Position numbers and translations under genes: made by a program | Assembly (NCBI GenBank): GCA_020060385.1 | Contig: JAGVAH010000082.1 | Span: 114,138 to 178,137 of the forward strand | DNA: 64,000 nucleotides | Origin: Syntrophobacterales bacterium | GTDB lineage: Bacteria; Desulfobacterota; Desulfobaccia; Desulfobaccales; 0-14-0-80-60-11 | Reading direction: 5' to 3' | Notes under the pieces: generated by a model | Databases searched by the model: none | What the model saw: the letters and a program-made list of their open reading frames with translations, nothing else | What the model was told of the DNA's origin: nothing | Part shown: positions 1,180 through 20,353 of the stretch, piece by piece | Numbering within the stretch: position 1 is the stretch's first letter | How the letters are laid out: each line of letters starts with the position of its first letter

Positions 1180-1935
1180 ATGACCTCCCGGCAGACCCCC
1201 GCCATTGTCCTGCAGATCCGCGATTACGGGGAAGCGGACCGGCTGGTAAATTTCCTCACCCCCGACGGGGGCCGGGTCTCCGGCATCGCCAAGCACGCCA
1301 AGAAGAGCAAGCGCCGCTTTGCCAACTGCCTGGAGCCCCTGAACCGGGTGATCTTTCAGCTTTCCCCCCGGCCTCGGGGCGATCTGGAATTCATCCAGCA
1401 GGGAGAACTGGTCAACCCCTTCTCCCATCTCCGCCGAGACCTGCGGCGCCTGGCGGCCGGCGCGGTCCTGGCGGAACTGGCCGGGGAACTCTCCGCGCCG
1501 GTGGAAGCCACCGGCTCCATCTTTCAGACCCTGAACCAGGCCCTGGAACTGTTGGACGGCGGCGGCGCCCCGGACTCCCTGTTGCCGGCATTTTTCCTCC
1601 ATCTCTTGAAATTAGGGGGATACGGCCCCCGTTGGCGGGACTGTCGCCAGTGCGGCCGGGAGCCTGCGCCTCCCCTTTATTTCAGCATTTCCAAAGGGGG
1701 GGTGGTCTGCAGCTCCTGCAGGAACGCGGCCGCGGGGCCTATGCTGCCCCTTACTCCCGGGGTCTGGAAACTGCTGCGCCTGGCCCAGGACCTGCCCCCG
1801 GAAAAACTCCACCGTCTGCGTTTCCCCCCCTCCCAACGGGACCAGAGCCTGGCTCTGCTCCAAAAATTCTCTCGCCATCACCTGGGCCGGGACCTGAAGT
1901 CCTGGTCCTTCTGGGAGAAGATGACCCGGGGCTAG
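1180..1935 (+). CDS. recO: DNA repair protein RecO
   Basis: RecO-like N-terminus (IVLQIRDYGEADRLVNFLTPDGGRVSGIAKHAKKSKRRF) and C-terminal Cys pairs (CRQCG, CSSC). Confidence 0.9.
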   Translation: MTSRQTPAIVLQIRDYGEADRLVNFLTPDGGRVSGIAKHAKKSKRRFANCLEPLNRVIFQLSPRPRGDLEFIQQGELVNPFSHLRRDLRRLAAGAVLAELAGELSAPVEATGSIFQTLNQALELLDGGGAPDSLLPAFFLHLLKLGGYGPRWRDCRQCGREPAPPLYFSISKGGVVCSSCRNAAAGPMLPLTPGVWKLLRLAQDLPPEKLHRLRFPPSQRDQSLALLQKFSRHHLGRDLKSWSFWEKMTRG

Positions 1936-2443
1936 GATAATGTCCCGGTAATACCTTTCCAAAGTAGCGAAGTCCTTTCTCCCTCCCCCTTGAGGGGGGA
2001 GGGTCGGGGTGGGGGTGGCGTCTTTTTGACTGATTACAGGCAGTTTCCCGAAGTCGCCCCCCTCCCCCCGTGGGGCTGATCATTACCCATAAGTCGGATG
2101 AGGCGGAAAGAGCTAAGGGGATATTAAGGGATGCCACGTTTATACACCCCCCTCACCCTAACCCTCTCCCCCCCTTGGGGGGAAAGGCCCGCAAATGTTT
2201 AATATCTGCCATATGTTATTTTTTCCATATCAACTTGTGGGTGATGATCAGCCCCGTGGGGAGGGGGAGTTTTAGGAGGAGTCATTTTGTTAATTATTCC
2301 TGGGACGCGACATTGAGGCACCGGTCTTATACAGTCTTTCATCCCAATCCTTGCCTTGTCTGGCAAATATCAAGTTTTAAAGGAACTTGCCGATATTACT
2401 AAAAATAAGCATCATCACCCACCAACCCCATGCCGGGACGCCC

Positions 2444-3247
2444 ATGAAGACCAAATCCCTGTTTCTGGCTCTGCTTTCCTGCCTCTTCCTCCTTAACCTC
2501 AGCCTTGCCCCCCAGGCCCATGGAGCCCGGGTGTATCTGGTGGTGGACCACGGGGTGGAACAGGATGCGGAAGCCCAGGGCCGGGCCGCGGTCAACGGCG
2601 TCTTTGATTTTTTTCAAAGAATTTATGGGATAGGTCTACAAAGAGATCTACGCATCAAATTCTCCTGCGATAAACTCAACTATAAAAAGGCCATCCAGGA
2701 CTGGTACGGCGCCAGCGAGTCCCAAGCTCATTTAACGGCCAGCTCCTCCCTGGGTGTGCAGCGGCAGGGAGACCTAATAGTAAATTTAGGAGATATCAAC
2801 GGCGACTATCAACAGCTCTTCGTCCTCTGCCACGAGTTGGTGCATTTCTATCAGGCGCAGGAGAGCCTGGATAAACATGGGGCGTTAGGCTGGATGCTGG
2901 AAGGCACGGCTGACGCCCTGGCGGCTCACATTTTGGAGACCGTGGGCGTAAAAAACGCGAGGGGCTACAAAAGCTGTTGGATTGAAAATCTGAAAAAGGT
3001 TCGGGGTGTTCCCAGCCTGGAAAGCCTGCACACCCGCCAGGGACTGATGTCCGCCTGTTATACCTATGGGGGCCGGGTCACCTATGCAACTTCAGCCTTA
3101 GCGGTGATTACCCTGGTGGAGTGGCGGGGCTACCCGGCCCTGTTTACCTACTTCCGGGCCCTGAAAAATTGCAGTCCGGAAGATGCCTTTTACCAGGCCT
3201 TTGGCACCAGGGCCGGGGATTTCGAAAAACAATTCCGCCCCTTTTAG
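2444..3247 (+). CDS. Secreted putative zincin-type metallopeptidase
   Basis: Signal peptide MKTKSLFLALLSCLFLLNLSLAPQAHGA; HELVH zinc motif in CHELVHFYQAQ. ATG at 2444 preferred over the ORF-track start at 2387. Confidence 0.55.
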   Translation: MKTKSLFLALLSCLFLLNLSLAPQAHGARVYLVVDHGVEQDAEAQGRAAVNGVFDFFQRIYGIGLQRDLRIKFSCDKLNYKKAIQDWYGASESQAHLTASSSLGVQRQGDLIVNLGDINGDYQQLFVLCHELVHFYQAQESLDKHGALGWMLEGTADALAAHILETVGVKNARGYKSCWIENLKKVRGVPSLESLHTRQGLMSACYTYGGRVTYATSALAVITLVEWRGYPALFTYFRALKNCSPEDAFYQAFGTRAGDFEKQFRPF

Positions 3248-3470
3248 GGGCCCTCACTTCTCTTGGGGAAGACCGCAGCCACGGGGTTTCAGGCCCGGCC
3301 GGCCAGGCCCGCATTCCTTGCATGGGTTTTCCCGCCCTGGCTCATGCCCATTTTTTTCAAAGTCTTTTAAGATTAAGCACTTTAAAGGCTTGCCTTAATC
3401 ACGGAATTGCCTATTCTAGGGCCAGAGGTTTAACCCTGCGCCCCGGCGAGACGCCCCCGCCAGAAGGGAA

Positions 3471-4352
3471 GTGCTGGACATGCCGCAGCCTTTGACCTAC
3501 CAATCCTGGACCCCGGTGCTTTTGGTGGTCTTCTTTCTCCTCCTGGGGGCCCTGGAAAACCTCTGGCCCCTGCGACGCCTGAAACGCTCCTGGCCCCGGC
3601 GCTGGACCGTTAATCTGGCGGTCACCGCACTCTCCTTCGGGGTGGGTGCGGCCCTGGTGAGGCCCTTGGCCCTGGCTACAGCCGCTTGGGCCCAGTCCCA
3701 TTCCCTGGGTCTCTTCCCCTGGCTGGCCCTACCCTTCTGGGCCCAATTCCTCCTGGGTTTTTTGTGGATGGACGCCACCTTCTATTTCTGGCACCGGGCC
3801 AACCACGTCTTTCCCCTGCTGTGGCGCTTCCACAACGTGCACCACGTGGACCCGGACATGGACGTGTCCACCTCTTTCCGCTTTCATTACGGCGAGACCT
3901 TCTATTCCTCCCTCTTTCGCGTCTTGCAGGTATTACTGGTGGGGCTCTCTCCTTTTACCTATCTGGCCTATGAAGTCGTCTTCAACCTGGCCACCATGTT
4001 TCACCACAGCAACCTGGCCCTCCCCATCGACCTGGAGAGGCGGCTGAATAAGGTGCTGGTCACCCCCCGGATGCACGGCATCCACCATTCCGCGGTGGGC
4101 CAGGAGACCAACTCCAATTATTCCGTCATCTTCTCCTGGTGGGACCGGTTGAACCTGAGCCTGCGCCTCAATGTGCCCCAGAAGGAGGTGGTTATCGGGG
4201 TTCCAGGTTATCTCCTGCCCGGGGACAACCACCTCTGGCCCCTGTTGCTGCAGCCTTTTGAGCACCAGCGCCCCTACTGGCGCTGGCCCACCGGCCGGGC
4301 CAGTGTGCGCAAAATCGTGGCCGCGGCCGATCCCCATCATCTCCTCCCCTGA
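3471..4352 (+). CDS. Sterol desaturase / fatty acid hydroxylase family membrane protein
   Basis: Histidine clusters FWHRANH, RFHNVHHVD, HGIHHS between hydrophobic segments. Confidence 0.88.
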   Translation: MLDMPQPLTYQSWTPVLLVVFFLLLGALENLWPLRRLKRSWPRRWTVNLAVTALSFGVGAALVRPLALATAAWAQSHSLGLFPWLALPFWAQFLLGFLWMDATFYFWHRANHVFPLLWRFHNVHHVDPDMDVSTSFRFHYGETFYSSLFRVLQVLLVGLSPFTYLAYEVVFNLATMFHHSNLALPIDLERRLNKVLVTPRMHGIHHSAVGQETNSNYSVIFSWWDRLNLSLRLNVPQKEVVIGVPGYLLPGDNHLWPLLLQPFEHQRPYWRWPTGRASVRKIVAAADPHHLLP

Positions 4353-4524
4353 GCATCGCCCTTCTCTCGCCCCCGGATTTTTGGCCGTCACCTTGCCCCG
4401 GTTGGCCCAGACTCTTATCATAATTGGATAGGAGGCGGTTTTAGTGAGCAGAGGGCAGTGAAAAGGAGAAGGTCGGATAAATCTCGTTTTTATAACAAGT
4501 CTCAATCTAACGGCAATTTTTCTG

Positions 4525-4582
4525 GAGGGGTGAACCTTGTGTTCGCCCACCCTCGCAGGGCGAATACAAGATTCGCCCCTAC
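4525..4582. repeat. Dispersed hairpin repeat, GGGGYGAACCTNGTGTTCGCCC family
   Basis: Inverted arms; related copy at 28800-28859. Confidence 0.7.
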
Positions 4583-4667
4583 AGCTCAATGCCATTTCAA
4601 GGGGAAAGGTATTACTGCTCAACGCTCACTGACCCGGCCTTCCAAGTCTTGTCAAAGGAGATAAGCC

Positions 4668-5189
4668 ATGAGGCTGCAAGGCAAGCGCATTGCCATCCTG
4701 GTGGAGGATCTCTACCAGGATCAAGAGGTGTGGTATCCCTTGCTGCGCTTCCGGGAGGAAGGCGCGGCAGTGGTGGTGGTGGGCTCCGGCGCCGCCAAGG
4801 TGCATACCAGCAAATACGGCTACCCGGTGGAAGTGGATAAATTCGCCCCCCAGGTGCGGGCCGAACAGTTCGACGGGGTAATCATCCCCGGGGGCTACGC
4901 CCCGGATATCATGCGCCGCCATCCGGCCATGGTCGCACTGGTGCGGGACGCGGTGCAACAGGGCAAGATCGTGGCCGCCATTTGCCACGGGGGCTGGATG
5001 CTGGCCTCTGCCCAGGTTCTTAAAGGCAAGACGGTCACCTGCTTCTTCGCCATCAAGGATGATCTGGTGCACGCGGGGGCTGACTATGTGGACCTGGAGG
5101 TGGCGGTGGACGGCAATCTCATCACCTCCAGGAAGCCCGAGGATCTCCCAGCCTTCTGCCGTACCATCATCGCCGCGCTGGCAGGTTAA
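4668..5189 (+). CDS. DJ-1/PfpI family protein
   Basis: GGYAPDIMRR and nucleophile elbow AICHGGWMLASA. Confidence 0.9.
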   Translation: MRLQGKRIAILVEDLYQDQEVWYPLLRFREEGAAVVVVGSGAAKVHTSKYGYPVEVDKFAPQVRAEQFDGVIIPGGYAPDIMRRHPAMVALVRDAVQQGKIVAAICHGGWMLASAQVLKGKTVTCFFAIKDDLVHAGADYVDLEVAVDGNLITSRKPEDLPAFCRTIIAALAG

Positions 5190-5446
5190 ATCTTCCCGCC
5201 GGCCTGCCCCCTCTGGCAGCAAAACAGGTACAGCGGCTAAGCCTGGGACAGTGGCTCGAACATGTCCCAGGACTGACGCATGCTGGATTAAATATTTTCA
5301 CTAAAATTACCATCAGTTATCCTGCCTAGTCCCTGGCCGCGTCCTTGCAGAAGTGAGTTCCGGGAGCCGGAGAGCCAGGCTCCCGCATCTTCCTGACCGG
5401 GAGAGGGGACCTGGGGCCACTCTCTCCGGGGAGAGGAGCCGGGGCC

Positions 5447-6364
5447 ATGGAAAGAGGTCTCGGACTGGCGGCGGGCCGCGGCTACCAGTGGCTGGGCGCG
5501 GGAGAAGAAGGCCTGGACCGGGCCGTGGTGGCGGGGTTGATGCTGGACGCGGCCTTAAAGGCCGCGCCTGGGCCCCCTGACCCCCAGGCCTGGGGCCGCC
5601 TCCTCAAAATCCGGGTGCAGGAAGCGTTGCTCACCCATCTGGCGGGCCGCATCACCCTGGACCGCTTCCGGGCCTTAATCAGCAGCTTGAACCATTGTTT
5701 CCCCTTTTATCTGCCCCTCATCTCCCCTTTGGCGCAGCCCGGGCCCCCAGGGTCCGGCTCTCCCAGGCCTGCGGCTGCAGAGCCACCCTTTCCCGCCTCT
5801 TTCAACCGGTCGGTGCGCGTCCACCTGTTGGCCACAGCCCTGGCCCGGCTCCGGGGTATTCTCCCCCGGCGGCCCCATAGCAAGTTGCAGGCTGAGAAGC
5901 TGCTCCACTTCCTGGCGGGCACCCGGGGCTGCTGGTTCCGCCTCCGGGACTTCCAGGAGCGCTTCTCTCTGGAGCGCAAGACCGCCTGGGAATACCTGCA
6001 AAAATTTTGGCGGGCCGGGCTTCTTACCCACAACCAGGGCCGGGCTGCGTCGGTGCGCTACGCCTTGGCGGAGCGCTTTTTGCTGGTCCCGGGGGCAGCC
6101 CTCCGGGCCCATGCGGCCGCGGCCCTGGGGGACCTGGACCCCCGCCTGGGGGCCCGGGTGGCGGACTGGCTCATTGCCAGCGGCGGCGCCTCCTTCTGGG
6201 AGGAGGAATGGCGCCGCTTTCTGCCAGGGGCGCCTTTCCAGGAGATTCTGGACCGCCTCACCAACCCTGGTTCTCTCCTGGAGGTGGTGAGGGCCACTCC
6301 GGGGGGTAGCCGCCTCCTGCGGCTGCCCGCAGATTGGCGCCGCCACCCGGAGGCGATCTCCTAA
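5447..6364 (+). CDS. Hypothetical protein with possible winged-helix segment
   Basis: Long ORF in a gene-free gap; winged-helix-like FRLRDFQERFSLERKTAWEYLQKFWRAGLLTHNQ. Confidence 0.55.
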   Translation: MERGLGLAAGRGYQWLGAGEEGLDRAVVAGLMLDAALKAAPGPPDPQAWGRLLKIRVQEALLTHLAGRITLDRFRALISSLNHCFPFYLPLISPLAQPGPPGSGSPRPAAAEPPFPASFNRSVRVHLLATALARLRGILPRRPHSKLQAEKLLHFLAGTRGCWFRLRDFQERFSLERKTAWEYLQKFWRAGLLTHNQGRAASVRYALAERFLLVPGAALRAHAAAALGDLDPRLGARVADWLIASGGASFWEEEWRRFLPGAPFQEILDRLTNPGSLLEVVRATPGGSRLLRLPADWRRHPEAIS

Positions 6365-6679
6365 AGTCAACGGCCCCAGAGTGTCCAGCAGGGTAGACGT
6401 ACCGGCCTTTCCGGTTATCTTATTGGTATATGGTTACTTTTCCCAGGGAACCAGAATCTAGCCAAAATCTAACTTGCTCATTGGCAAGGAAATGATAATA
6501 TATCTCCAGGTCATTTCGACAACCCCTTGCATAGCTGGTCCCTGCAAGCCCTTACAACCATACCTGCATAATTAATCAATCCTGCAATTTTGAGAATCAG
6601 TGAAGCCATCTTGCCTGAGGCTGCGGGGCCGCAGATCAGTATTCAACCAAGAGACCTAGCAATAGGGAGGACTGTAACC

Positions 6680-7762
6680 GTGAACTACGATTTGCCGGAT
6701 ATCCCCTCTCCGGAATTGTGTGCCGGTAAAATCTTCGAGATCAGCGGCAATCGCCTGGAGCCGGAGTTGGCCGCGGAACTGCTGCCCAGAATTCTGCAGC
6801 ATAAATGGCTTATGTCGGAAAAGCTGGCCCGGGACGTGGGCCTGAAGGTGGCGTGCATCGATTTTCTGGAAAACATGGAGCAGGCCCGGGAAGAATACCT
6901 GGCCTATCAATATCACGATCTCCTTAACGAGATGGGCGCCCTGGCCATCAGTCCCCAATTATGGGCCACCATCTCCGATTCCCAACCCCCGAAGCAGATA
7001 GTGCAAAAGAGGATCATTCTGCCCCTAATCCGGGAGAATCTCTCGAAAAAGCATGGAGTTGTGCCTCCCAAGGCCATTATTTTCTTCGGACCTCCGGGCA
7101 CCGGCAAGACCCACTTTGCCAAGGCCATCGCCGGCGCCCTGTCCTGGTGGTTCATCGAGATCGCGCCCAGCATGCTCCTGGCGGACGGCAGCGAAAAGAT
7201 GGGAGCCAATCTCCGGAAGATCATGGAAAAATGCAGGAACTTGAAAGAAGTCGTCATTTTTATCGATGAATTCGAGGAGATTGCCGGGAGCCGGGATGAG
7301 GCCAGCCGCCTGGATAAATCCATTACCAACGAATTCTTGAAACAGGTGCCCTTGTTCAAAAGCCAGGACAACAATCTGCTCCTCATCTGCGCCACCAACT
7401 ACATCCGGGACCTGGACGCCGCACTGCTGCGGCCCGGGCGATTTGATTGCATTATTCCGGTGGGGACTTTGAACGAAGAAGAACGGGCCAATATCCTGGA
7501 ATACTACCTGGCCAAACTGAATACCGGGGAAGTGGACCTCAAACGGGTGATCAAGATGACCTCCCGGTTCACCCCCGCGGATATTGAATATCTCTTCCAG
7601 CAAGTGGCCCAGTTCACCTTCGAGCAGGAACTGGCCACCAGGCAGGATTACCGGGTGACTACGGACACTATCTTTGAGATTATCCCGAAAATCCGGGCTA
7701 CCCTGACTGACGAAATCATCGTGGAGTTCGAAAAGGATAGTATCACCTACTCCCGGTATTAA
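6680..7762 (+). CDS. AAA-family ATPase
   Basis: Walker A GPPGTGKTH, Walker B VVIFIDEFEE, sensor ICATN, arginine-finger region LLRPGRFD. GTG at 6680 or ORF start at 6590 possible. Confidence 0.85.
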   Translation: MNYDLPDIPSPELCAGKIFEISGNRLEPELAAELLPRILQHKWLMSEKLARDVGLKVACIDFLENMEQAREEYLAYQYHDLLNEMGALAISPQLWATISDSQPPKQIVQKRIILPLIRENLSKKHGVVPPKAIIFFGPPGTGKTHFAKAIAGALSWWFIEIAPSMLLADGSEKMGANLRKIMEKCRNLKEVVIFIDEFEEIAGSRDEASRLDKSITNEFLKQVPLFKSQDNNLLLICATNYIRDLDAALLRPGRFDCIIPVGTLNEEERANILEYYLAKLNTGEVDLKRVIKMTSRFTPADIEYLFQQVAQFTFEQELATRQDYRVTTDTIFEIIPKIRATLTDEIIVEFEKDSITYSRY

Positions 7763-7791
7763 ACTTGAGACCTCTGCAAAAGGCTGTTTTT

Positions 7792-7875
7792 TGTCATTCT
7801 GAACGGAGCGCAGCGGAGTGAAGAATCTAGAGTTTCCCCACGCTAGATTCTTCGGTCGCTTCGCTCAGAATGACA
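7792..7875. repeat. Dispersed inverted repeat, TGTCATTCTGANCGGAGCG...CGCTCAGAATGACA family
   Basis: Two head-to-head arms; same family at 40176, 44245, 49393, 61876 and split arms elsewhere. Confidence 0.85.
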
Positions 7876-7955
7876 AGATCGCGAGGCTGAAGCGGGCGAG
7901 ACGCCCGCCCTCCTTTTTTAACCCCGGGCTATACCACCAATGCCGCAGAATCAAT

Positions 7956-9740
7956 TCACCCCGAGGCCGCTTTCCGGAGGCGGATGGCCCCGGGGGTTAC
8001 TTCCACCAGCTCGTCGTCGTTGATGAACTCCATGGCCTGCTCCAGGCTGAACTGCCGGGGGGGCACCAGGCGCAGGGCCTCGTCCGCGCCCGCGGCCCGG
8101 ATATTGGTGAGCTTCTTCTCCTTGGTGATATTCACCCAGATATCTTCGGGCCGGGTATTTTCCCCCACAATCATGCCCCGGTAAACCGGGTCCCCCGGCT
8201 TGACAAAAATCGTGCCCCGGGGCTGCAGGTGGAAAATGGCATAGCCCACCGCCTTGCCGGGCCGGTCCGCGATCAAGGCCCCGTTGGGCCGGCCGCTGAT
8301 CTCTCCCGCGTAGGGCCTGAAACCCTCCAGAATGGTGTTCAAGAGCCCCGTGCCCCGGGAATCGTTCAGGAACTGGCCCCGGAAGCCGATCAAGCCCCGG
8401 GAGGGGATGGTAAACTCCAGGCGCACCCGGCCCGAACCGTGGTTGATCATCTTCACCATCCGCCCCCGGCGCGCGGCCATCTTCTCGGTGACGATGCCGA
8501 TGAACTCCTCGGGAATATCCACCACCGCGGTCTCCACCGGCTCTAAGAGCGAGCCGTCTTTTTCCCGGATGATGACCCGGGGTTTGGAGAGGGACAGTTC
8601 AAAACCTTCCCGGCGCATCATCTCGATCAGGACCGCGAGTTGCAGCTCCCCCCGGGCGCTGACCTTAAAGGCGTCTTTGGACTCCCCCGGCTCCACCTTG
8701 ATGGACACGTTGTACAAGACTTCCTTGTCCAGGCGCTCCTTGAGATGGCGGGAGGTGAGGAGCCTCCCCTCCTTACCGGCCAGGGGCGAATTATTCACGG
8801 AAAAGACCATGGAGATGGTGGGCTCTTCCACGGTGATGCCGGGCAGCGGCCGGGGGTCCTCCGGGTCCGCCAAAGTGTCGCCGATGAAGGCCGCGGGCAC
8901 CCCGGCCACCGCGGCCAGATCGCCGGCGGCGATGCTTTCCGGCTCGCTCCGGTCCAGGCCCTCGAAGCTGTAAATGACGCTGAGGTTGGCCTTCCCGGCC
9001 CTCTGCCCTGCTTTTAAGAGCGCCACTTCCTGGCCTTTTTTAAGCGCGCCGCCGACGATCTTGCCCACGGCGATGAGGCCCACGTAGTCGCTGTAATCCA
9101 GGCTGGTCACCAGAAACTGCAGAGGCCCGTCCGGGTCGTAGCGGGGCGGGGGAATGGCTGAGAGGATGGCTTCAAAGAGGGGCGTCAGGTCCCGCCCCTG
9201 CCCTTCCGGATCGGTCAGGGCGATGCCCGCCTTGGCGTTGGTGTAGAGCACCGGGAACTCCAGTTGCTCCTCGGTGGCGTCCAGATCGATGAACAGGTCG
9301 TAGATCTCGTCCAGCACCTCCTGGGGGCGCCGGTCCTCCCGGTCGATCTTGTTGATGACCACGATGGCCGGGAGCCCTTTTTCCAGGGCTTTTCCCAAAA
9401 CGAAGCGGGTCTGGGGCAAAGGGCCTTCGGTGGCGTCCACCAGGAGCATGACCCCATCCACCAGGTTCAGGGTGCGTTCCACTTCGCCCCCGAAATCTGC
9501 GTGGCCCGGGGTGTCGACGATATTGATCTTCACGCCCTTGTAGGTGATGGCCATGTTCTTGGCCATGATGGTGATGCCCTTTTCCCGCTCCAGGTCCAGG
9601 CTATCCAGGACCCGTTCCGCCACCTGCTCGTTGGCCCGGAAGATGCCGCTCTGCCAGAGCATGGCGTCCGCCAGGGTGGTCTTCCCATGGTCCACGTGGG
9701 CGATGATGGCGATATTGCGCAAATCGTCTCGAGTTTTCAT
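7956..9740 (-). CDS. typA: Ribosome-associated GTPase TypA/BipA
   Basis: [42 protein letters not shown]; full-length TypA-like C-terminus. Confidence 0.95.
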
Positions 9741-10277
9741 AAATCCTCGGCAAAATATGGGCCGCGTCCGGAGCGGCCTTTATCTCACTACTCCTTTTGG
9801 ATTGATAAGCAGACAGTATTTAGCTATCAGCTAACAAAAGGCAACTTACCTTGTCTTTTGCTAAAGACTAAAAGCTGAAGGCTGGTATGCAAAAATCCGG
9901 GCAGGACGGCAGGGAAACCCCTCCGTTTAATCTTGGCTGGCAAAATCTTGCGGCAAGTTCCCGGCAGTATTTATATGGAGTTTAACGTTTGCGCCCTTTT
10001 TGCGCAAGACAGCGAAAAAATCCGGAAGTTCTCCAAGCAAATTTTGGATACAGTGTTGATCATGATGAGTTTACCGCTAAACCTTTTTCACTGATTATGT
10101 TTACAATATATTTTTTTCTGAATTTGTGCTACCCTTCTTTCCCTGAGACAATTTTGGCAGCAAGGAAAGAACTTTTTCGAGATTAACCCCCCACTTAAGG
10201 GTTCCAGGACTTTTTTAACTGGGGGTGCCAAGATTGCCGCATAATCACCAGATGATTATACCAAAGGGGAGGTTGTC

Positions 10278-12119
10278 ATGTGGGACCTAACTGTCTCTAA
10301 CTATCCATCATGGCGTGGCGGGATTTTCTTTCCCGTGATTTTGGCGCTGGCTTTGAGCTTTTCCCTGGGGCCAGCCTGGGCTGGAGCCGATGAGGCCTAT
10401 GCCCATCTCCAAGAGGTGATGGATAAATATAATGATGTTTTTTACGTCTATTTGGGCCGGGATGAGGGGGGCAATCATTTTTTCCCCTCCGGCAAGATGG
10501 GGGACCTGGATGATCTGGCTATTAACACCAACTGGACTTCCGGCTGCCTAGAAGCCGATGCCCGCAATTGCAGTTGCACCAAAGTAGTATACACCCCCAA
10601 ACCAACCAGCGTGTGGGCCGGCCTTTACTGGCAGGAACCGGAAAACAACTGGGGAGGCATAGCCAACGCCGGTTATGATCTCCGGGGAGCCGACCGGCTC
10701 GTTTTCCGGGTCAAAGGAGAAAAAGCGGGTGGGGTGGTGGAGTTTTTTGCAGGGGGCCTAACCGGGGAACCCTTAACCAAGACCTCGATAACAGTAACTT
10801 TAACAGAAGACTGGAAAAAGTATGAGATTCCCTTGGATTCGAAAGACCTACGCCGGGTCATCGGCGGTTTCGGTTTTAGCGTGAGTAAAGCTAACTTCCC
10901 CTCCGGCGCCACTTTTTATCTGGACAACATTTATTATAACCAGGCGCGCCCCGATGACCTGAGGCTGCTGGTCAGCTATGAGACCTTTAATTTGGGGGGG
11001 GCCGATAGAACTTTTAAGAATTCGGCCTATGTCTATGATAATTCCCTGGCCTTACTGGCCTTCTTGGCCAGGGGCGGCAGTGATGATCTGAGGCGGGCGA
11101 GAATTTTGGCGGATGGTCTGGTGGCGGCCCAAAACCATGACCGGAAGTTTACCGACGGCCGCTTGCGCAACGGTTATAAGTCTGGGGATTTGATTTACTA
11201 TTACACGGACACAGCCCAACTCCCCGGATATTGGAATGATGATACTGACCCTCCACAATGGTACGAAGACCAATATGCCAAGGAAACCTACACCGGCAAT
11301 CTGGCCTGGGCCATGATCGCCCTGTTGCATTATTATAAAAAAATGGGAGGGGCTGCTTATCTGAATGCCGCGGTCAGGCTGGGCAATTTCATCGAGGCCA
11401 ATTTAAAGGATACCCGGTCTGCAGGCGGCTATAATTATGGCTACCGGTATGTAGCAGGTACCGATGATGTCTTTAATAAAGATCTGGTTAGATCCATGGA
11501 GCATAATATTGACCTGTATGTGGCCTTTAGATTGTTATATGAAATAACGAGCGAGGCCCAGTGGCTCAACCGGGCCCAGTATGCCAAAGTTTTTGTCCTG
11601 GCCATGTGGAGACCCGACAACCAACAATTCATCTGCGGAAAGAAGGCGGATGGTACCGATGATGAGAGATATGCGCTGGATGCCCAGGCCTGGGCCGCCC
11701 TGGCCCTTGACAGTTACTTAACGGCCGTTCGCCGGGCGGAGATCAACTTTTTTGCCACCGGCTGCGGCTTTCAAGGATTTGCCTTCAACTCCGACCCGGC
11801 TTTTAAAACCGGAGTCTGGTTTGAGGGCACCGCGTTTATGGTGTCCGCCCTTAACCTCAGCAATTTAAAGGCAAAGGCGGATTTTTCCCTGGGAGAGCTG
11901 CGCAGGGTCCAGATCAGCGCCCCGAACGCCAATGGGCTGGGGATCATTGCGGCCTGTCCTGACCTGGATACCGGTTTTAACTGGATTTATCCCACCCGTT
12001 TATACGTCGGCGCCACCGCTTGGTACATCTTTGCGGAAACCAAATATAATCCCTTCTGGGGCACGATTATTAAGGCAAAACCGACCACCATTCCTCCTTC
12101 TTTGTTATTACTAGAATAA
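10278..12119 (+). CDS. Secreted protein: carbohydrate-binding-like domain plus alpha/alpha-toroid-like region
   Basis: Signal peptide; Trp-rich N-terminus with LRGADRLVFRVKGEKAGGVVEFFAGG; repetitive helical hairpins with AWAMIALLHYYKKMG and AWAALALDSYL. Confidence 0.6.
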   Translation: MWDLTVSNYPSWRGGIFFPVILALALSFSLGPAWAGADEAYAHLQEVMDKYNDVFYVYLGRDEGGNHFFPSGKMGDLDDLAINTNWTSGCLEADARNCSCTKVVYTPKPTSVWAGLYWQEPENNWGGIANAGYDLRGADRLVFRVKGEKAGGVVEFFAGGLTGEPLTKTSITVTLTEDWKKYEIPLDSKDLRRVIGGFGFSVSKANFPSGATFYLDNIYYNQARPDDLRLLVSYETFNLGGADRTFKNSAYVYDNSLALLAFLARGGSDDLRRARILADGLVAAQNHDRKFTDGRLRNGYKSGDLIYYYTDTAQLPGYWNDDTDPPQWYEDQYAKETYTGNLAWAMIALLHYYKKMGGAAYLNAAVRLGNFIEANLKDTRSAGGYNYGYRYVAGTDDVFNKDLVRSMEHNIDLYVAFRLLYEITSEAQWLNRAQYAKVFVLAMWRPDNQQFICGKKADGTDDERYALDAQAWAALALDSYLTAVRRAEINFFATGCGFQGFAFNSDPAFKTGVWFEGTAFMVSALNLSNLKAKADFSLGELRRVQISAPNANGLGIIAACPDLDTGFNWIYPTRLYVGATAWYIFAETKYNPFWGTIIKAKPTTIPPSLLLLE

Positions 12120-12174
12120 AATGTGGGATTGATTGGGCTGGTGATCTCAGGCCTATCGCCGCAAGAGGTGTTTT

Positions 12175-13242
12175 ATGCAAATAGGGTTGCCGGAAACGGA
12201 GCTGCAGAAAACCATCGTCATCAGCGACATCCACATGAGCGATGGGCAGAATTACAGTTGGTTTCTTCCCCCCTGCCCGGAGGAGGTAATAGCCCTGCTC
12301 CACCGGGTGGCCAGCGATGCCAGTGTCGAAGAACTGGTGCTCCTGGGGGATGTGTTCGATCTCTGGCTCTATCCCCTGGACGTCGTCCCCTGGACCGTCA
12401 GCCAGATCATTGGGGGGAACCCGGCCATCACCCAGGCTCTCCGGCAATGCGTACAGAATATCGCCAACGTCTATTACCTGAACGGCAATCATGATCTGGA
12501 GGTCAAGGCTGCTGCTTTGCAGCCATTTAGCTCCGGCGGCAAGAGTATGCAGTGGATCACCCCGGAGTGGTATCAGGCGAAGCATCAGGGCCGGCGGCAC
12601 CTGGAGCATGGGCACGGGGTAGATATGTTCAATGGGCCGGATGACTCCGGGGATACCATCGGCGGTTATCCCTTGGGATTCTTCATTACCCGGCTGGTGG
12701 CCTCGGCCCCGGACAGGCGCGCCGCGGGGCAGGCGTTAAAAGAACTGCTCCAGACCCGGAGCGCGGCCTTAGGGGCTATGACCCTTGATGAAATCGATGT
12801 CCGGGCGCTGGGTCCGGAACTGGTGAGAGCCATTGTCGACCTCCTGGAGATCTATGCCGGGGTGGATGACATTACACCCATGAGATTCTCGGAACCGGAA
12901 TTGGACCAAAAATTTACGGTGGGGGATATCAAGAATCATTATGGCAGCCTGTTGGACACCTGGTTCAAGCGGTTCCCTAACCCTGTGGAATTAGCGAAGA
13001 CCATGGTGGTGACGGTTATTCCCACTGGGTTGAACTGGTATGCCCAGAAGCTGCTCTCCGGGTCGTCGCCCCCGAAAGTCGTGGTCATGGGCCACACCCA
13101 CCATGCCTTAACTGAGGGCGCCTATGACAACGATGGCTGTTGGTGTCTTTCCAGTTCCTGGGGCCACGGAGACGCGACCTCCAGCTACGTGGAGATAATC
13201 GGGGACCAGGCAACCCTGGTTTTTGGGAGGCAGCCGGGATAA
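12175..13242 (+). CDS. Metallophosphoesterase family protein
   Basis: VISDIHMSDG, LLGDVFDLW, LNGNHD, VVMGHTHHA. Confidence 0.9.
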   Translation: MQIGLPETELQKTIVISDIHMSDGQNYSWFLPPCPEEVIALLHRVASDASVEELVLLGDVFDLWLYPLDVVPWTVSQIIGGNPAITQALRQCVQNIANVYYLNGNHDLEVKAAALQPFSSGGKSMQWITPEWYQAKHQGRRHLEHGHGVDMFNGPDDSGDTIGGYPLGFFITRLVASAPDRRAAGQALKELLQTRSAALGAMTLDEIDVRALGPELVRAIVDLLEIYAGVDDITPMRFSEPELDQKFTVGDIKNHYGSLLDTWFKRFPNPVELAKTMVVTVIPTGLNWYAQKLLSGSSPPKVVVMGHTHHALTEGAYDNDGCWCLSSSWGHGDATSSYVEIIGDQATLVFGRQPG

Positions 13243-13614
13243 GGAGCCGGGGCGATGTGAAGGTAAATTCCCTGATTTTAATAGGGTGAGATTGTAAAGA
13301 ACTGCTAGTTATTATCCCTCCCCCAATTACCTCAACATCCTTATTCTAACGCCATACCGGACCCTGCAAATTGCCTTAATCACCCCATGGGGGTCCTTTC
13401 TACCCCTGCCAATCAATTCTCCGGGGACTGAGGGGGCAGGCAATTTTTTTTAAAAATCCACTAGATCCGGCCGGTTGATTAACAAAAACAGGGAGATTTA
13501 TGCTAACATGTGAAGTCCAAAAAATGGGACTGGAAAAGGGAATTTCTCAGGGTTACCCTCGAGGATAGCCTCCACCAGGCCGTTAAGGGTAAGGCTTGCC
13601 GGGAGAGTTGCTAG

Positions 13615-15267
13615 ATGAAAAGGGATAATATTTATTGTCCATTAAATCCCACTAGACTAATACCTGGTATAGTGATTGATTTCAACATCTATGTAAAATC
13701 TCCTATTAAAGGAACACATAAAGAAGAATATTCCCTTTTCCTGAGTCGCGGAGAAGTCTTTAATCCCGGCCATCTGGCCAAAATCAAATTTAAGCACTTT
13801 CATTCTGTCTATTATCACCGCGACGATGCAGCTAATGTAAAAGCTTACCTTGACCAAGATATTACTTTTGCAGGAGATATAAAAGATACCATCCAGGTAA
13901 TAAGTGCGGACCCGGCTTCAGCAATAGGCAAAGACAACTATATTCCTTTTAATATTAACGACCTGCACCCCGGCACAAAAATCACCTTTGATCTCTTTAA
14001 AAAAACCCCAATTCCCCAAGCGACGGATTACAGTTACAATATTATTATTTCAAGGGGAGATATGTGTCAAAAATCATTGACGGATGAGCTGAAGCGGAAA
14101 GAGGTTAAGTACCTTTATTTTCGCAAGCAAGATGGCGCCGAAGCGCTGCAATATCGTAACCTGGCCAGAAAAATGAAAGCAACCCTCCCGGACATTAAAT
14201 TTAATATTTCTCAGCAGACATTGGATGTTAGTCAAATTGCCACTGCCCCTGGTTTTGAGGAAGGTGAAGGTTATACTTCGCTGCCCCTACGGAATTTGAC
14301 TCCGGGATGGGAGGTTCCCTTTGACGTCTTTGTCAAGACCATCACCAAAGAGGTTATGAAACCTAAATTTATTAAATGTTGCGAACGGGGTGATGTTTTT
14401 CAGAAAGAATGGCGCTTAAAGCTGCAACAATTGGGGATCCCCTGTGTTTATTTATCCTTGCAAGACCTGGAAGAAGTTCAGCAATATCTCCACCAAAACC
14501 TGGAGATGGTCTTGAAGGATGAAACTCAAGATACCCTGGAGAAGGGAGTGCGGATTTGTGACGCCGCGCATATGTGGACTTTTAACTTCTTCCACTCGGA
14601 AGAGGCCCGTACGGTGAAACAGGTTAAAGAGGGTCTGAAATTTTTGGATACCTTGTTTGAGGTCATCGGCGCCGACCATCATAATTTTTTATCTTTAATG
14701 CAGATCAAATTCCACAGCTTCCATCTTTACACCCATTGTTTTAATGTCTGCTTATTGGGATTGGCCTTCGCCATCTTCCTGGGTTGGAGCTGGGAAAAAA
14801 TCCAGGAATTCGCCCTGGGGGCCCTGGTCCACGATATCGGTTTGACCAAGACGCCCCGGGACATCCTGGAGAAAAATGGCCCCCTCACTCCCGGGGAGAT
14901 GTCCCAGATCAGGCGCCATCCTCTGGACGGCGTGCGCCTGCTCCAGGCATCCACCAACCTGTCTTGGGAATCCTTGCAAATGGTCATGCAGCATCATGAA
15001 AATGGCGATGGCTCCGGCTATCCGGACGGCTTGAAAATCGAGGACATCCACGATTGGGCCAGGATTTTACGCATCCTGGATACCTACGAAGCCATGACCG
15101 CGGAGCGCCCCTGGCGCCCCGCCAAGGAACCTAAGGAAGCCTTGTGGGTCATGCGCAATGACTGGGAGAAGGGCAAGGTTTTCGACAAGAATTACCTGAG
15201 GACTTTTATCTTATTTCTGGGAGACATTTCTCTGGCCAAGGACCATCCTGGGTTAGGACGGCCTTGA
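13615..15267 (+). CDS. HD-GYP domain protein with repeated N-terminal domain
   Basis: LVHDIGLTKTPRDIL and HHENGDGSGYPDGL; three similar N-terminal segments. Confidence 0.85.
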   Translation: MKRDNIYCPLNPTRLIPGIVIDFNIYVKSPIKGTHKEEYSLFLSRGEVFNPGHLAKIKFKHFHSVYYHRDDAANVKAYLDQDITFAGDIKDTIQVISADPASAIGKDNYIPFNINDLHPGTKITFDLFKKTPIPQATDYSYNIIISRGDMCQKSLTDELKRKEVKYLYFRKQDGAEALQYRNLARKMKATLPDIKFNISQQTLDVSQIATAPGFEEGEGYTSLPLRNLTPGWEVPFDVFVKTITKEVMKPKFIKCCERGDVFQKEWRLKLQQLGIPCVYLSLQDLEEVQQYLHQNLEMVLKDETQDTLEKGVRICDAAHMWTFNFFHSEEARTVKQVKEGLKFLDTLFEVIGADHHNFLSLMQIKFHSFHLYTHCFNVCLLGLAFAIFLGWSWEKIQEFALGALVHDIGLTKTPRDILEKNGPLTPGEMSQIRRHPLDGVRLLQASTNLSWESLQMVMQHHENGDGSGYPDGLKIEDIHDWARILRILDTYEAMTAERPWRPAKEPKEALWVMRNDWEKGKVFDKNYLRTFILFLGDISLAKDHPGLGRP

Positions 15268-19717: not shown

Positions 19718-20353
19718 TTATTGATTGGGGTCCGGGACCACGCAGTAGCCCGACTCGCTGCCTTGATAGCAAGGCTGGTAATAGGTGCCTTGGTCATAGT
19801 AATACGTCTGGTTGTTGACCACCATGGGCTGGGCGGATACGGAGAGGGCGCCCACCAGGGTGCCCACGGCTAAAGCCCCGGCTACCCCCGCAGCCACGCC
19901 CCAGCCGGGACCATAGTAAGGTCCCCAGCCGCCACCGCCGTAAACGTTGACGTTCCTATTGTAATAGTAATTGTCGTGATAAGGGGGATGCGGCCCCGGA
20001 GGTCCCGGCGGGTGCGGCCCCGGAGGTCCGGGGGGGTGTGGACCCGGAGGTCCAGGATGCGGGCCGGGAGGGCCAGGATGGGGGCCGGGGCCAGGACCGG
20101 GATGCGGGCCAGGGCCGGGGCCGGGATGGTAGCCTCCCGAGTAGTGGGGCTCCGGCCGGAAGCTGCCGCCGCCGAAGCCGCCGCCATAATGACCGCCACC
20201 GCCATAATGGCCGCCGCCATGCATACCGCCACCGCCATGCATACCGCCGCCGCCGCCCCGGGCTTGGGCTTCCTGGGTAATGACGGGAAAGCCCGCCATT
20301 AATAGGGACAAGATAAATACCACCAGCAGGCGGGATAATTGCGCGAGCCTCAT
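19718..20353 (-). CDS. Exported Gly/His/Pro-rich low-complexity protein with glycine-zipper-like segment
   Basis: N-terminal signal; GGGGMHGGGHYGGG and GPHPGPP repeats; GVAAGVAGALAVGTLVGAL. Stop overlaps the neighbouring reading frame. Confidence 0.7.
   Translation of the reverse strand: MRLAQLSRLLVVFILSLLMAGFPVITQEAQARGGGGGMHGGGGMHGGGHYGGGGHYGGGFGGGSFRPEPHYSGGYHPGPGPGPHPGPGPGPHPGPPGPHPGPPGPHPPGPPGPHPPGPPGPHPPYHDNYYYNRNVNVYGGGGWGPYYGPGWGVAAGVAGALAVGTLVGALSVSAQPMVVNNQTYYYDQGTYYQPCYQGSESGYCVVPDPNQ

Follow-up and report, generated by a model that had tools for sequence, protein, structure and literature searches.

The solved protein closest to the one described here is Bd1817 of Bdellovibrio bacteriovorus (PDB 3TM8, 3TMB, 3TMC, 3TMD), in which an N-terminal domain is combined with an HD-GYP domain. 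Bd1817 has one N-terminal domain, lacks the GYP tyrosine, and is inactive (PMC4159591, PMC8177086). DUF3391 HD-GYP proteins also carry a small N-terminal domain before HD-GYP, with a similar L-x-PG-x-x-I-type start, and the N-terminal domain of Bd1817 has been treated as DUF3391 (PMC12943098). Several input modules of one kind on a single c-di-GMP enzyme are found in RmcA-like proteins (PMC8846402), but these are PAS domains, and both the domain and the enzyme class are unrelated to those considered here.

We analyzed a stretch of 64,000 nucleotides (the window) from a Syntrophobacterales bacterium. It encodes a protein that shares with Bd1817 the N-terminal domain fold and its combination with HD-GYP, but that has three N-terminal domains, intact di-metal ligands, and the GYP motif. 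The gene, its upstream sequence, and the domains of the protein are as follows.

13460-13509, + strand: leader, 78% over 50 nt against the orthologue in sister genome G006; probably a promoter or 5' region
13615-15267, + strand: gene for an HD-GYP protein with three Bd1817-type N-terminal domains; 550-aa open reading frame
13630-13872, + strand: domain copy 1 (A), aa 6-86; neither the G001 nor the G006 orthologue has it
13936-14193, + strand: domain copy 2 (B), aa 108-193
14269-14520, + strand: domain copy 3 (C), aa 219-302; adjoins HD-GYP and corresponds to the lone copy in paralogues and in Bd1817
14521-14718, + strand: helical connector, aa 303-368, with predicted helices H307-327, H334-351, and H355-367
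14719-15222, + strand: HD-GYP domain, aa 369-536, with H374, H406-D407, H435, H460-H461, D489, and GYP at 468-470

Identity of the N-terminal domains

The preliminary description reported three similar segments in the N-terminal region, and these are real and colinear in the protein. Local alignment scores between pairs of copies are 101, 83, and 84, far above the means for shuffled sequences (22-24, maximum 51), and none of the 2000 shuffles per pair reaches any observed score. An HMM built from single-copy paralogues only, with the window protein left out, matches aa 6-86 (E 1.4e-12), aa 108-193 (E 1.2e-12), and aa 219-302 (E 5.1e-33). The best match of the same HMM to 996 shuffled sequences has an E value of 0.5.

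Structure prediction gives the same picture. The AlphaFold model of the full protein (76 sequences, mean pLDDT 82) has an identical β-β-β-α-β-α order in each copy, a likeness that was judged by the order of elements and not by superposition. The predicted elements are:

copy 1: E7-10 E25-30 E37-43 H51-59 E65-68 H69-80
copy 2: E109-113 E127-132 E139-145 H153-161 E166-170 H171-189
copy 3: E220-224 E238-243 E251-256 H264-272 E277-281 H282-301

Block pLDDT is mostly about 90 in the copies, and the linkers have low confidence (pLDDT <50 for aa 84-105 and much of 190-214). The 76-sequence alignment has hardly any rows over copy 1, so few relatives underlie its confident predicted fold. Copy 2 was also modeled by itself, from 87 domain rows, with a mean pLDDT of 91.

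The domain had been described as unrecognized, which is correct insofar as it has no Pfam or NCBIfam model. Searches of the 550-aa protein with Pfam, NCBIfam, and PHROGs returned HD families only (the C-terminal HD-GYP matches HD_5 at E 3.5e-28 in Pfam), and Pfam gave no consistent match to 56 single N-terminal domain rows. A viral structure library also gave no match. The domain is nevertheless that of a solved structure, the N-terminal domain of Bd1817. When the domain profile alone was searched against PDB sequences, it matched Bd1817 residues 23-96 (E 3.4e-9), with the next sequence at E 0.09, and hhalign against the Bd1817 N-terminal domain gave 97.9% (E 5e-13). Via phmmer, copy 3 and HD-GYP align along Bd1817 residues 23-281 (E 2.2e-13); copy 3 stands directly before HD-GYP, as in the Bd1817-type arrangement. 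Five Bd1817 chains take the top five Foldseek ranks with the whole predicted model. With the copy 2 model, the best Bd1817 match has a TM score of 0.68, an rmsd of 2.3 Å, and probability 1.0, and Bd1817 chains are the sole probability-1.0 matches among the 50 listed.

A rival view is that the domain is an ordinary DUF3391 (PF11871), present three times in what would then be a DUF3391 HD-GYP protein. It draws on the assignment of the Bd1817 N-terminal domain to that family and on the suggestion that unannotated N-termini of HD-GYP proteins are in many cases divergent DUF3391 domains (PMC12943098). One hhalign run against DUF3391 also gave a colinear match at 54%. That match did not hold up with deeper alignments and more shuffles: the deeper profiles gave 12-20%, compared with up to 39% for shuffled controls, and the Bd1817 domain itself gave 1.4%. 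At the Pfam cut-off PF11871 matches neither the 56 domain rows nor the Bd1817 fragment, nor does it match the domains of the window protein, and the same genome holds a separate, clear DUF3391 HD-GYP protein. We regard membership in DUF3391 as possible but lean against it. The three N-terminal modules are Bd1817-type domains, known from a solved structure though lacking a Pfam model.

Origin and distribution of the array

The preliminary description took the array to be internally triplicated, that is, one N-terminal domain duplicated twice within the gene. Three related copies in a row, with local alignments far above shuffles, are what such a history would leave, but the phylogeny contradicts it. 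The tree of 56 domains rests on 88 columns and is unsure in its fine branching. In it, the first domains of two-domain paralogues form a 7-row clade with copy 1 (100/99), and their second domains group with copy 2 (98/92). Copy 3 is placed among single-domain paralogues (98/87), grouping at 100/99 with its own orthologues. Forcing the three copies into one clade costs 152 log units and is rejected by the AU test (p-AU 1e-6), as are copies 1 and 2 together (p 3e-6) and copies 2 and 3 together (p 1e-64). We consider in-place triplication extremely improbable.

The HD-GYP tree agrees with the domain tree. There the window protein and its B-C orthologues group together (100/100) among the single-domain paralogues, separately from the A-B doubles. 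Together the two trees imply the joining of two parts, an A-B module and a C-HD-GYP gene; by this phylogenetic evidence, the first part (copies 1 and 2) derives from a two-domain paralogue and the second (copy 3 with HD-GYP) from a single-domain paralogue. A single-domain paralogue in the same genome (G000:C167:5566-6627), one of those of about 350 aa with one N-terminal domain, is 59% identical to the window protein over aa 183-536 and shares its copy 3 and HD-GYP lineage. The A-B part of a two-domain paralogue (G000:C9:10843-12111, 428 aa) aligns to aa 1-180 with 43% identity, but this protein has no copy C and its HD-GYP is of a different lineage.

Across the 7 genomes of the window's genus we identified 80 domain matches, which grouping by reading frame assigns to 61 genes with one domain, 8 with two, and one with three (that of the window); some frames are cut by contig ends. 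Domain copies number 6 to 16 per genome, so that this one HD-GYP subfamily is unusually expanded. In places, two to four Bd1817-type HD-GYP genes follow one another in tandem (G000 contigs C90, C167, and C130; G003:C143; G005:C509). In the phylum the domain is present in 25 of 148 genomes. Outside the genus, no frame with a match has more than one copy, and all these frames are 321-432 aa long except for one broken frame of 138 aa. More broadly, the Bd1817-type domain is a common single-copy partner of HD-GYP. Named relatives with the domain include MAGs filed as Desulfobacca acetoxidans, Syntrophales, and Deltaproteobacteria, as well as Desulfarculus, Desulfocarbo, and Candidatus Brocadiaceae. 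These came from the family alignment; a scan of named genomes with aa 1-305 alone confirmed none. We found no published report of the three-copy form in the open-licence literature searched, and this architecture is apparently new, whereas the domain itself was already known.

Orthologues in sister species

Orthologues in two sister genomes (G001 and G006) have copies 2 and 3 only. The G006 locus (contig C101) is syntenic with window positions 1180-9740, and there copy 1 is absent as a clean indel of ~340 bp behind the shared leader: the spacing from leader to copy 2 is 60 nt in G006 versus about 400 nt in the window. Part of the leader sequence is present in G001 too, and a search of other paralogues showed that it is not shared beyond the orthologues. 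Loss of copy 1 in the sisters, rather than its gain in the window gene, is favored though not proven by the tree, since one two-domain parent is the source of both copy 1 and copy 2.

The region upstream of the gene also differs. At about 9900-13450 in the window, a gene without a Pfam family (10278-12119) and one for a calcineurin-like phosphoesterase (12175-13242) lie between TypA and the HD-GYP gene. Both are missing from the syntenic G006 locus, where TypA directly adjoins the orthologue.

Copies 1 and 2 could be decaying passengers left by the gene fusion, a reading suggested by the lack of copy 1 in two sister genomes and by the faster evolution of B relative to C. However, dN/dS for B is 0.18-0.19, a rough value given that synonymous change there is near saturation, and copy 1 is predicted to be well folded and retains the core pattern. 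The corresponding values are 0.12-0.15 for C and 0.12-0.20 across B, C, and HD-GYP. We consider decay unlikely; judged from these ratios, B, C, and HD-GYP are under purifying selection.

Catalytic domain and proposed function

By alignment with PmGH, from which the residue mapping was taken, all seven di-metal ligands are present (H374, H406, D407, H435, H460, H461, and D489), as is the GYP motif (G468, Y469, P470). The E185 position is occupied by H370, which places the protein outside the trinuclear E/D-T-G group (PMC4159591). The equivalents of D183 and K225 are absent, with S368 and L410 in their places. These two residues are essential in PmGH, a trinuclear enzyme and the only protein for which this was shown (PMC4159591). 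Only 3 of 76 members of the family (L001-L046 and L064-L123) retain the K225 equivalent. In the other 73, M, L, Y, R, or Q stands in place of the HDIGK lysine, and the metal ligands are retained; a Candidatus Brocadiaceae member (L114:2498-3484) keeps the K. The HD motif of Bd1817 in the same alignment is HDYGH, and Bd1817 has further losses, namely the GYP tyrosine and the last aspartate.

Phosphodiesterase activity of the window protein is thus uncertain: the D183 and K225 equivalents are missing although the metal ligands and GYP are intact, and Bd1817 is inactive but with those further losses. The HD-GYP domain might be a catalytically dead adaptor that binds c-di-GMP or partners without hydrolysis, with A-B-C as docking modules. 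The inactivity of Bd1817, its closest solved relative, and the absence of both equivalents point this way, and retention of all seven di-metal ligands and GYP, unlike in Bd1817, points against it. A dead adaptor is in our view a serious contender, if not quite the expected outcome.

Overall, we think it likely that this is a soluble A-B-C-HD-GYP signaling protein in which A-B was joined to C-HD-GYP and the extra heads serve in binding. A, B, and C would be beads on flexible linkers. Copy 3 and the following helices, which run into the connector, may be the original partner of the catalytic domain, to which they would couple. Copies 1 and 2 would be added modules that bind a partner protein or small ligand and so could broaden input or targeting. 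Two metals are probably bound by the HD-GYP domain, and its substrate or sensed ligand is probably c-di-GMP or pGpG; there is a real possibility that hydrolysis is weak or absent. We infer modular docking or sensing as the preferred mechanism. Deletion of DUF3391, the family to which the same paper assigns the Bd1817 domain, is reported to have left activity unchanged in some HD-GYP proteins (PMC12943098), which speaks against simple allosteric control.

A broader and more doubtful proposal is that the Bd1817-type domain, at most distantly related to DUF3391, serves as a module for input or docking and has been multiplied in one Desulfobacca-related genus, within HD-GYP proteins that have a shifted active site lacking K225. 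If so, single-, double-, and triple-domain proteins would be differently addressed receptors or phosphodiesterases for c-di-GMP or pGpG. A widespread, unannotated HD-GYP N-terminal domain is now tied to a solved structure, and the profile could be developed into a family model. Paralogues with one, two, and three domains, together with an orthologue in which just copy 1 is missing, form a natural deletion series for the role of this domain, also with respect to Bd1817 and DUF3391.

Gene neighbors of the window gene indicate no pathway, and those of the paralogue arrays are unrelated housekeeping genes or genes without a family. Elsewhere in the window, a second HD-GYP gene (37-1116, + strand) encodes D-T-G before the first metal histidine and presumably belongs to the trinuclear subgroup, unlike the three-domain gene. 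Positions 19718-20353 (- strand) encode a protein of low complexity in which Gly-His and Pro-His-Pro-Gly stretches are abundant.
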